A stretch of DNA of 64,000 nt from Tichowtungia aerotolerans (GCF_009905215.1 NZ_CP047593.1:3104900-3168899); one strand, 5' to 3'; shown: positions 46,206 through 50,039, counted from the first letter of the stretch. A program made the numbers and translations. The notes: generated by a model from the letters alone, not told the origin.

Positions 46206-49200
46206 ATGGCCGCTGAGTCGACCAATCGTCGTTTTCTGAATCTGTTGAAGCCGCTGTGGCTTCCGGTTTCGGCAACCATTTTATGCCTGATTCTTCTTAC
46301 GGCGGTAAATATGGTTACGCCGATGCTGATAGGCACGGTGTTCAGTCGGGTTTTTCCCGAGCGCAACTGGTCTTTGCTGTGGATGATTCTGGGCGGGCTG
46401 ACCCTTCTGTTTTTGGTTCGGAACCTTCTTTTTTATCACAGCAAGTGCATCGCTGTACGTGTCGGGGAAGAGGTTTGCTTTAATCTTCGAACCCAGCTTT
46501 TTGATCGTATTCAGCAGAAAAGCCTGATTTTTACCCGCACGCAGAATCCAGGCAAGCTTTCCAGCAAGGTGATGAATGACTCCCTGAAGATTCAGGAGTT
46601 TATTCAGGGCGTAATGCCGAAGTTTATCCAGTCAGCTCTCTTGTTTGCAGGGGTGATGGTGATGATCTATGTGCTGAACTGGCAGTTGGCACTGGCTTCG
46701 ACATTTGTTCTGCCGCTGCATGTGCTGACCTACCGTTATTTCGGCGAACGTATCAAGCAGGCCAGCCGCCGTTCCCGTGAATCCATTGATTTTGCTGCCG
46801 GCAACATCGTCGAGAGTCTGGTAGGTGTGGAGGTCGTAAAAGGATTCAGCGGCGAGGAGCGTGAAAGTCAGGCTTTTAAGGATGCGATTGCTTCGTCCCG
46901 TCGCAGTCAGGTGGAAAGCCTTCGGTATGTTGCTTTGCAGAAAGTCTGGGCGGATCTGCTGGTAGGAGCCGGAATGCTTGCGCTGATCGGATTCGGGGCC
47001 TGGCAGGTGATCGGAAAGCCGGAGGGCCAATCCATGCTGGCAGGTGATTTTATTGCATTTTTCTGGTATATCCGCTTGCTGTATCCAACCGTCATTGAAC
47101 TGATGAGCAGCGGGGGAAAGCTTGCCGGTGCTCATGCCAGTGTTGAGCGCGCACTGGAACTGTTTGATGAAGTGCCACAGTCTGTGGACCGCAAAGCCGG
47201 CGGGTTGAGACCGAGTATGCGTGAAGACATTGTTTTTGAAAATGTTTCATTTGCGTTTAACCCTGAAGAGGAGGGGCTTGCTGTTATCAAAGGAGTTTCC
47301 TTTGCGGTTCGAAACGGGGACGTCTGTGCGATTACAGGTCCTTCCGGGGCCGGCAAAACCACGATGGTCAGCATGCTGCCGCTTCTGATTACTCCCGATA
47401 AGGGAACCATCCGTATTGGGGAGCACGATATCCTGTCGGTCGATCTTGCACATTTAAGGGATTCGATCGGTGTGGTATTTCAGGAATGTTTCCTGTTTAA
47501 TACGACGATTATGGAAAATCTGCGCTATGCCCGACCCGACGTCCGGATTCGCCGAATCAAAGAAATCTGCCGCCAGACCGGCGCCGATGACTTTATTCGT
47601 CAACTTCCGCAGGGCTATGACAGTATTGTTGGTGAAAACGGGATTACACTTTCCCGTGGCCAGAAACAAATGATCACCTTGACGCGAGCAGTTATTAAAA
47701 ATCCGGAAATACTGATTCTCGATGAAGCGACTGCTTCGCTGGATCCTTCTTTAGAATCATATGTGATTCCCACAATTCTGGATCTTATGAAAGGACGGAC
47801 GACGCTTATGATCACGCACAATCCCAGACTGCTTGAACACGCTGATTGCGAACTGATTCTTGACGATGGGCAGGTCGCATCGTTTAATCAGCTGCGTAGA
47901 CCGTCTGCACGACCATTTGGATCGAAAGCCGGAAAAACAGTGGCTGCAGCTCTCGTTGCCGGATGCATTGCTTTTGGGTTGCTGCCGCAAACCGCTCGCG
48001 GCGGAGAGATGATCAGCCGGCGCGTGCGACTCAGCTACATTGCTCCGGAGCGTTGTGTCCAAATGCTCCAGTTGTACGGGATTTCTATCGGGCAGGCAGG
48101 CAAGCCGGTGAATGCGAAAACGCTTCCTACAGTGGTTGCCCAGCCTTCCACTCCAGCTCATGATTTACTCCCTAAAATGGGGACCGGGTTTAAACCTACA
48201 GATTCGGATCCCATTGGAGATCTTTTAGTCTTTTATGATGAAGATAAGCCCGAGCAGTTCAGCCGGGTTCAGACGGTGATTCGCCGGGATATCGACCTTC
48301 CGGCCCGTCAGATTATGCTGGAAGCGATGGTGATGGAGATTTCCGAGGATTCGATTGACCGACTGGGAGTGGAATGGTCCCGGGATATTTCTTCAGGGGG
48401 GGACGTCGAATTTGGAGCGGGGCTGGGAGATATTACCGGCCAGTTAACAGTTAATGTGGATGATATTTTTTATGATTTCAATATGAAGCTTCGCGCACTG
48501 ATCCGTGAAGGTGAGGCGGAAATTATTTCCCGGCCCAGTGTGCTGACGCTAAATAACCGCATGGCTTTCATCAACGTGTCCGATTTAGTGCCGGTTGCCC
48601 AATCAAAGTATCACGGTAATCAGGCAATCAGCACGGTGGATTTTAAAGATAAAGAGGTCGGTATCCAGCTGGCTATCCGTCCCCGGATTAATGAAGACGG
48701 TAAAGAGGTCAGTCTGCAGGTGAACGCAGTTGTTTCTGCCGTGGTTGCCGGAGAGGATGTCGAGGTTAAAAAGGATGATGATGTGGTTGCCAGCAGTCCG
48801 ACCATTTCGGTTCGTGAGGTCAAAACCTATGCTCGCATTGCCAACAATACTCCATTTATTATCGGTGGACTGATCGCCAAAGATGATACTAGCACTCGCG
48901 ACCGGGTGCCGGTTCTCGGGGCTATTCCGTATCTGGGGAAACTGTTTCGTTTCGAATCCATTACAGAAGTGAAGCGGGAAGTGATTATTGTCATTACGCC
49001 GTTTGTTCTTCCGGAGGCGGATGGCCTGCGGTCTGATCAGCAGATTGTGGGACGCAACCTGCCTCAGGATGAGGATCAATTCGATTCTATTGGTAACCGT
49101 CTGTTCCGAGATGCCTACCGCATTCGTGAAGAGGATGTGTATGATCTAGACTTCCTTGTTTCCAACGAAGAACTTATGCGTCTGCAAACGCTGGCCGATC

Positions 49201-50039
49201 AGGCTGCCTCCGGCAATTTGACAATGAAGGAGACATACCCTTACAGCCACTTTGTAAACGGAAAGATCCCGGGCGAGCAGGTCCTTGTTTATCGTCAGAT
49301 CTATTCGGTCATTCGCCGGATTGGTTTGGATAAACAGGTCGATACAGATCATCTGATTTTCTTTAAAAAGACTCCTGACCAGTCAACGGGGTTTGATGTG
49401 GTGTTTCTCGGCAAATTCCTGCAGAAGGAGGCAGAGCGGATTTGGACGAAAAATCATCCGGATGAACGCTGTCCCGAGGATATCTGGGAGGCGCTTGGCG
49501 ATCATGCGATCGCTCTGACCTATACCAACCGCAAAAAAGAAGCGGATGCCGCTGAGATTATGTTTGAGGAGGTGCCGGATGTTCAGATTGTTCCCTGCAC
49601 AAGTCGGGAGGAATTTGATCGCTTGCTCTGGGACCTCAATCAGCCGGATGAGCAGGGGCGTGGGCGAGGGACTATTCTCCTGCACACGGAGCGGGATCTG
49701 CAGCGTGTGAAGCAGGCCATTGTGCTGCGTGAAGCCATCGACCTCAATGGAACCGGTGACACGATGACTCTTGCTAACTTCAGCACAGGTCGGTTGCTGT
49801 TGTTGCCGGATCGCGATGATAACCAGGTTGATTTGATCGGAGGGAACATAGCCCGTCTGTTCCTGACTACGGACCGTTATTATGACCTTCTTCGAGAATC
49901 TCTGCGCACCGATATGGATGCTTTGCGGAACGCACTTAACCTGTCACCGAAGTCGCAGGCGGCCCCTGCGAAACCAGCTCCAGCACCTAAGGCAGAACCG
50001 AAGCCTGTTCCCAAAGAGGACGCGAAGCCGGCCTCTTAG
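46206..50039 (+). CDS. ABC exporter-secretin fusion protein
   Basis: A single open frame of 1277 codons, with AGGAGG just upstream. Residues about 1-320 are a six-helix ABC exporter membrane domain. Residues 340-560 are its ATPase (Walker A GPSGAGKTT 378-386, signature LSRGQ 482-486, Walker B ILILDE 502-507, H-loop His538). Residues 573-599 form a signal-peptide-like helix (VAAALVAGCIAFGLLPQTARG). Residues about 600-935 are a secretin domain, with SRPSVLTLNN and VPVLGAIPYLGKLFRFES. Residues 940-1277 are unrecognised and end in a Pro/Ala/Lys tail. Topology is consistent: the ATPase is inside and the secretin outside. An in-frame GTG at 47940 could also start the secretin part alone. The fusion could instead be a processed polyprotein. 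Confidence 0.88.
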   Translation: MAAESTNRRFLNLLKPLWLPVSATILCLILLTAVNMVTPMLIGTVFSRVFPERNWSLLWMILGGLTLLFLVRNLLFYHSKCIAVRVGEEVCFNLRTQLFDRIQQKSLIFTRTQNPGKLSSKVMNDSLKIQEFIQGVMPKFIQSALLFAGVMVMIYVLNWQLALASTFVLPLHVLTYRYFGERIKQASRRSRESIDFAAGNIVESLVGVEVVKGFSGEERESQAFKDAIASSRRSQVESLRYVALQKVWADLLVGAGMLALIGFGAWQVIGKPEGQSMLAGDFIAFFWYIRLLYPTVIELMSSGGKLAGAHASVERALELFDEVPQSVDRKAGGLRPSMREDIVFENVSFAFNPEEEGLAVIKGVSFAVRNGDVCAITGPSGAGKTTMVSMLPLLITPDKGTIRIGEHDILSVDLAHLRDSIGVVFQECFLFNTTIMENLRYARPDVRIRRIKEICRQTGADDFIRQLPQGYDSIVGENGITLSRGQKQMITLTRAVIKNPEILILDEATASLDPSLESYVIPTILDLMKGRTTLMITHNPRLLEHADCELILDDGQVASFNQLRRPSARPFGSKAGKTVAAALVAGCIAFGLLPQTARGGEMISRRVRLSYIAPERCVQMLQLYGISIGQAGKPVNAKTLPTVVAQPSTPAHDLLPKMGTGFKPTDSDPIGDLLVFYDEDKPEQFSRVQTVIRRDIDLPARQIMLEAMVMEISEDSIDRLGVEWSRDISSGGDVEFGAGLGDITGQLTVNVDDIFYDFNMKLRALIREGEAEIISRPSVLTLNNRMAFINVSDLVPVAQSKYHGNQAISTVDFKDKEVGIQLAIRPRINEDGKEVSLQVNAVVSAVVAGEDVEVKKDDDVVASSPTISVREVKTYARIANNTPFIIGGLIAKDDTSTRDRVPVLGAIPYLGKLFRFESITEVKREVIIVITPFVLPEADGLRSDQQIVGRNLPQDEDQFDSIGNRLFRDAYRIREEDVYDLDFLVSNEELMRLQTLADQAASGNLTMKETYPYSHFVNGKIPGEQVLVYRQIYSVIRRIGLDKQVDTDHLIFFKKTPDQSTGFDVVFLGKFLQKEAERIWTKNHPDERCPEDIWEALGDHAIALTYTNRKKEADAAEIMFEEVPDVQIVPCTSREEFDRLLWDLNQPDEQGRGRGTILLHTERDLQRVKQAIVLREAIDLNGTGDTMTLANFSTGRLLLLPDRDDNQVDLIGGNIARLFLTTDRYYDLLRESLRTDMDALRNALNLSPKSQAAPAKPAPAPKAEPKPVPKEDAKPAS

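Follow-up and report, generated by a model that had tools for sequence, protein, structure and literature searches.

In known systems, pumps of the ATP-binding cassette (ABC) type use TolC-type channels to reach the cell exterior, and the roles of secretins lie in type II and type III secretion, pili and phage. Why, then, should a bacterium encode an ABC exporter and a secretin in a single gene? The question is raised by a stretch of 64,000 nucleotides of the Tichowtungia aerotolerans genome (NZ_CP047593.1:3104900-3168899, hereafter the window), where positions 46206-50039 on the plus strand form one open reading frame of 1277 residues. Here, we establish this frame, its conservation in two phyla, the partnership of its two halves and, by homology, the signal-peptide nature of the helix that joins them. 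We consider it rather probable, with reservations set out below, that the gene encodes a polyprotein made of an ABC exporter and a dedicated outer-membrane secretin, which signal peptidase would free and which would serve as the exit of the pump.

A pump, a secretin and a tail in one frame

The frame starts at an ATG (46206) preceded by an AGGAGG Shine-Dalgarno sequence and ends with a stop codon at 50039, without any internal stop. A first-pass annotation of this DNA, made from the sequence alone, had read it as an uninterrupted fusion of a full ABC exporter, a helix and a secretin. Translation and a search of the domain databases confirm this, with three Pfam matches that are each well over their cut-off. 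The transmembrane domain of the exporter (PF00664, ABC_membrane, E 4e-39) spans residues 24-292 (46275-47081) and the ATPase domain (PF00005, ABC_tran, E 1e-28) residues 362-510 (47289-47735). The ATPase motifs of an exporter half are all present: Walker A (GPSGAGKTT, 378-386), the signature (LSRGQ, 482-486), Walker B with the D-loop (ILILDEATASLD, 502-513) and the H-loop (MITHN, 535-539), which falls slightly past the ABC_tran match. TM_0288 and Sav1866 match this half over its full length in the PDB. The secretin domain (PF00263, E 6e-40, 137.1 bits against a cut-off of 27.5) covers residues 764-935 (48495-49010) and includes the hallmark that had been noticed at the outset, VPVLGAIPYLGKLF (901-914; 48906-48947). 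Its best PDB sequence matches are GspD/XcpQ, and all structural matches found by Foldseek at E<=0.001 are secretins or secretin-containing complexes (GspD, PilQ and InvG folds). The AlphaFold model places about one periplasmic N-domain ahead of it, a region of alpha/beta segments at residues 603-763 (48012-48494).

The better known families were tried and rejected. By score, the secretin is not the type II secretin GspD (TIGR02517, 162.8 bits against a curated cut-off of 351.35), and the exporter is not the lipid A flippase MsbA (TIGR02203, 308.7 bits against 602); the ABC part scores under the NCBIfam cut-off of each named exporter model shown.

Past the secretin, some 320 residues (about 936-1260; 49011-49985) are conserved in all 68 members of the family, with 13 invariant columns, and are followed by an unconserved low-complexity end rich in A, P and K (49986-50036). 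This tail had been called unrecognised, and so it is. From about residue 936 to the end, i.e. some 340 residues, none of the 68 members has a Pfam match, and there is no PDB sequence match. Structure prediction gave a confident model (mean predicted local distance difference test, pLDDT, 88.7; predicted template modelling score, pTM, 0.84) with no convincing fold match: the best hits of Foldseek (E 0.19) and VIA-align (Z 4.5 over 97 residues, to GGDEF domains) are uninformative. A weak match to Capsule_synth (E 0.11) was disregarded. One might guess that the tail substitutes for the missing N-domains as a link to the inner membrane.

Fused, separate and alternative partners

We searched for the family by running a profile of the tail on Verrucomicrobiota genomes and on 201 relatives of the Phycisphaeraceae genome G488. 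These are mostly draft assemblies, and all counts must be taken as samples. An early scan of contigs with the whole secretin-tail as query had returned zero matches; the tail profile finds the family in 18 Verrucomicrobiota genomes and in 51 of the 201 relatives of G488. The single-frame fusion occurs in 35 genomes. Besides that of the window, three of them are from Verrucomicrobiota and 31 are relatives of G488. In a genome of the same genus (G002) it has 70% amino acid identity, and its frame is broken solely at scaffold 'nn' joins. The 33 other genomes hold it intact, including two from other families of the phylum (G353 and G129). A stop or frameshift near base 47930, which resequencing might have revealed, is thus excluded by the presence of the same fusion in all these genomes.

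Relatives that keep the two genes apart do exist, side by side with the fused ones. The ABC exporter and the secretin are separate same-strand neighbours in 12 genomes, with the ABC gene first, i.e. in the order of the fusion, in 11 of them and the order reversed in G727. In four two-gene genomes (G694, G700, G790 and G846) the stop of one gene and the start of the other overlap by 4 nucleotides. In G337 the secretin, split over two contigs with nearly overlapping ends, starts 150 bases past the ABC stop with a signal peptide of its own. The stand-alone ABC protein of that genome (L098:7399-9144, plus strand) reads MVVPET at the expected position of the H-loop histidine, and its ATPase may therefore be impaired. 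The tree of the secretins requires at least four changes between the fused and the adjacent state and at least two changes of partner between ABC and MscS.

Are the two halves true partners? The ABC proteins fused to or found beside the secretin, together with stand-alone candidates, form one clade (support 100%) that excludes 42 other exporters from these or related genomes. Among the 201 genomes, 45 have both this ABC clade and the secretin-tail, six have the secretin-tail alone, one has the ABC clade alone and 149 have neither. The Fisher test (p 4e-37) overstates the significance of this association because related genomes are counted as independent. In G488 and G240 the secretin-tail gene is on its own at its locus, and the genome encodes a member of the ABC clade at another site. 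The ratio of nonsynonymous to synonymous substitution rates (dN/dS) is 0.02-0.11 in all comparisons of the ABC, secretin and tail parts in which dS is unsaturated. Hence, every tested part is under purifying selection. The sole genome of the 201 with the ABC clade and no detected secretin-tail, G789, has two members of the clade (C119:153-1796 and C351:20698-22335).

The secretin-tail has another neighbour. In eight Verrucomicrobiota it lies beside a gene for an MscS channel with a cyclic-nucleotide domain, recognised by Pfam in five and by similarity in three, and these genomes have zero ABC matches above 35% identity. The two genes of these loci (L075, L101, L148, L149, L150, L185, L186 and L187) are on the same strand and at most 140 bases apart; the pairs come in either gene order and occur in distinct regions of the tree. 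Two of them are followed by a gene for a Sel1/TPR-repeat protein (L149:64-1989, minus strand; L150:8044-9456, plus strand), possibly a third component of the set. In eight further genomes the secretin-tail has no recognised neighbour, and in five the locus is cut by contig ends. No member of the family was found on plasmids. One secretin-tail protein (L102:1025-4576, minus strand) ends in a CBM9-like domain (Pfam E 6e-7), a hint that its role in this lineage may be related to polysaccharides. The stand-alone genes at L146 and L147 lie near a NUDIX-like gene and a gene for an outer-membrane protein, which at L147 belongs to the Pfam family LpxR of lipid A deacylases.

The joint and the fate of the chain

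The two halves are joined by residues 564-601 (47895-48008), which read RRPSARPFGSKAGK-TVAAALVAGCIAFGLLPQTARG↓GE in the window, with a basic n-region and a hydrophobic core. The linker holds a lipobox-like LVAGC (583-587) and a signal-peptidase-I-like ARG↓G (597-600), whose counterparts in G002 are LLTAC and VRA↓A. A signal-peptide-like helix between exporter and secretin had been part of the initial description. It is no peculiarity of the window: in all 35 fusions the single frame is kept with one hydrophobic segment in this same place, between the ATPase and the secretin. Secretins that are not fused start with signal peptides of their own, and the class of the signal follows the clade, fused or not. 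One clade of Phycisphaeraceae relatives has the signal peptidase I type and another the lipobox type. The linker is also the least conserved part of the protein (31% identity between the window's genome, G000, and G002; dN/dS 0.43). A joint that is variable and yet always hydrophobic would be the expected look of a signal peptide. As far as sequence can tell, the helix at the joint and the cleavable signal peptides of unfused secretins are homologues.

These observations suggest how the product might be made. The ABC half, with its six transmembrane helices and cytoplasmic ATPase, would assemble in the inner membrane. The helix that follows the ATPase domain would then act as an internal signal peptide, engaging the Sec pathway and taking the secretin to the periplasm, where signal peptidase I, or II in the lipobox lineages, would cut it loose. 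The freed subunits would form a ring in the outer membrane, through which the ABC pump could discharge its substrate from the cell, and the tail domain would be a likely contact of the ring with the pump or the envelope. Cleavage, ring assembly, contact between exporter and secretin, and export are the steps that we infer. Relatives within the ABC family suggest, by analogy, an amphipathic substrate such as a lipid, a peptide or a small natural product. The first-pass annotation had offered two proposals, a novel type of exporter spanning the envelope or a polyprotein. Both ideas gain from the conserved pairing, the separate ABC clade and the homology of the helix to signal peptides; a physical exporter is the part that would follow only by the steps just described.

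Could the chain instead stay in one piece? The helix would then stay in the membrane as an anchor, covalently tethering the ring of secretins to ABC exporters in one trans-envelope machine. The uninterrupted frame and the purifying selection on both halves agree with this, and the topology is consistent, with the ATPase inside, one helix across and the secretin outside. But a ring of 12-15 subunits would impose 12-15 exporter protomers per ring, and the covalent link is not required because 12 genomes encode the halves separately. We favour a processed polyprotein over a permanent chain of 1277 residues because the helix is homologous to cleavable signal peptides of unfused secretins, lipoboxes included, and we regard the tether as quite unlikely. 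The same low standing goes to a gene with two translation products: an exporter read from the full frame, and a separate secretin precursor whose translation starts inside the linker. The start proposed for it, GTG 47940, is indeed present as codon 579 and is the sole candidate in the window. But it lacks a good Shine-Dalgarno sequence, unlike the true start with its AGGAGG, and lies past the basic residues, so that the n-region would lose them. The aligned codon of G002 is TTG, and several fusions (G353, G682, G714, G731 and G737) have neither ATG nor GTG in the 28 codons ahead of the segment. Some support for internal initiation comes from other genomes. An ATG (MKHP...) is conserved ahead of the hydrophobic segment in one clade of six genomes (G759, G767, G777, G811, G815 and G819), several other fusions have ATG codons near the segment, and the two-gene relatives with overlaps of 4 nucleotides resemble translationally coupled genes. 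The MKHP starts have no Shine-Dalgarno-like sequence ahead of them and may be either remnants or working internal starts. The genomes of this clade (L151, L179, L180, L181, L182 and L184) are small, 1.8-2.0 Mb.

The pairing itself might also have a different meaning. Exporter and secretin could be joined through co-expression or shared envelope assembly without forming a common conduit, e.g. if the ABC protein flipped a lipid required for insertion into the outer membrane and the secretin had another task. The nearest NCBIfam model of the ABC part is MsbA, though far under the family cut-off, and partners need not share a substrate because the secretin-tail pairs with an MscS channel elsewhere. 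Yet, the pairing of this ABC clade with the secretin-tail is nearly exclusive, and both kinds of partner, ABC exporters and MscS channels, act in transport at the inner membrane, which would make sense for a secretin-tail that supplies the way out through the outer membrane. We find this explanation unlikely, if a little less so than the tether or the internal start. Finally, an error of sequencing or assembly, or an accidental read-through that links two unrelated genes, is so improbable as to be negligible. The fusion is found in 35 genomes of two phyla, selection acts on all its parts, and the order is conserved in unfused relatives. Scaffold joins aside, only G725 (L140) shows a break of the fused frame, by a frame change within the ABC part.

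The processed polyprotein serving as pump and exit must itself be weighed against several observations. A motif for signal peptidase I or a lipobox follows the segment in 34 of 35 fusions (shuffles: mean 20.8, maximum 29, n=2000), but under a relaxed definition picked after the strict one, which gives 20 of 35 against 13.5 in shuffles. Taken alone, the signal peptidase I motif is not above shuffles (19 observed, 18.5 expected), so that the statistical support from motifs comes from the lipobox class (15 observed; maximum of 10 among 2000 shuffles). Because the relaxed motif was chosen post hoc, we put more weight on the homology with the signal peptides of unfused secretins. Six of the 51 genomes with a secretin-tail have no detected ABC partner; in one of these the partner is present but frame-broken, and three are cases on short contigs. 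The distances among ABC parts and among secretins correlate strongly (Mantel r 0.91), but this would also follow from shared ancestry. From the MscS neighbour in other lineages it is clear that the secretin-tail can do without an ABC pump. A polyprotein yields its parts one to one, a ratio at odds with a dimeric exporter and a secretin ring with 12-15 subunits, except where pumps are made in excess or several are recruited to each ring. And the whole proposal has been read from sequence rather than from the protein.

Relation to known systems and genomic setting

How does this arrangement compare with established routes across the envelope? In the type I secretion model a membrane-fusion adaptor is encoded with the ABC gene (PMC4793230). 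When the locus is compared with this model, the ABC component is present and the outer-membrane part of the same chain is a secretin. HlyB-HlyD-TolC and MacAB-TolC resemble the fusion in having a homodimer-type ABC exporter and an outer-membrane channel partner. They differ from it in that the fusion's channel is a secretin rather than a TolC-like protein, that no adaptor is recognised beside the fused gene, and that pump and channel share one reading frame with an extra tail domain. No membrane-fusion protein (MFP) was recognised in the neighbouring reading frames by inspection; no whole-genome search for such pairs was made. With the secretins of type II and type III secretion, type IV pili, Tad systems and filamentous phage (GspD, SctC, PilQ, RcpA and pIV) the fusion has in common the PF00263 domain and its VPxLGxIPxLGxLF hallmark. 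Unlike these, it has one N-domain-like region, no adjoining genes for an assembly platform and a C-terminal tail of 320 residues of no known family; the secretins of the Phycisphaeraceae relatives have in addition an N-terminal region of about 200 residues without Pfam match. The exporter half is a full half-transporter, with transmembrane and nucleotide-binding domains and all ATPase motifs, like MsbA, Sav1866, TM287-288 and P-glycoprotein, but it belongs to a separate clade tied to the secretin-tail. MscS-type channels gated by cyclic nucleotides enter the comparison as neighbours of the secretin-tail gene in the eight Verrucomicrobiota, not as part of the fusion. By the features compared here, the ABC-secretin protein appears to fall outside the definitions of type I and type II secretion alike.

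A parallel in kind is FbcH of Bradyrhizobium (cytochrome b and c1), a bacterial polyprotein cut at an internal signal peptide. There, too, a membrane protein and an exported partner are made in one chain, although the proteins are unrelated and cleavage of the ABC-secretin chain is a prediction. We found no description of ABC-secretin fusions or of MscS-secretin pairs in open-licence papers, including those on Planctomycetes and Phycisphaerae. As an architecture, the fusion appears to be new; a new secretion route would be its putative function.

The window lies in a single contig of 3.88 Mb. Inspection of the translations of the window locus shows a riboflavin operon (ribBA/ribH/nusB/ribD/ribE-like), a response regulator, pyrE, a zinc-ribbon protein and then sulfatase-like genes. 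No type II secretion genes adjoin the fused gene, as had been observed from the start. Membership of a type II secretion or type IV pilus system was rejected for this locus, which has no GspE/PilB-type ATPase or platform genes; matches to PF00437, the family of such ATPases, number five elsewhere in the genome and none at the window locus. Another secretin, at 3,423,873 (G000:C1:3422494-3426654), has two type II/IV-pilus ATPase genes (PF00437) on its flanks, and a conventional secretin system is therefore present elsewhere in the same genome.

Seen more broadly, the changes of partner raise a more general possibility, to which we give slightly less than an even chance: a two-component trans-envelope export system of the Planctomycetes-Verrucomicrobia-Chlamydiae (PVC) bacteria, in which a secretin with a dedicated C-terminal coupling domain would provide the outer-membrane exit and plug into either an ABC exporter, often produced together with it as a single polyprotein that signal peptidase cuts, or a cyclic-nucleotide-gated MscS channel. 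The exchange of ABC for MscS offers a comparison set up by nature, which could show how one outer-membrane pore fits different partners in the inner membrane. If the proposal is true, the fused gene would represent a rare bacterial polyprotein whose processing is testable, and a new class of trans-envelope transport in which an ABC exporter is coupled directly to a secretin. It would also account for some of the orphan secretins in PVC genomes.

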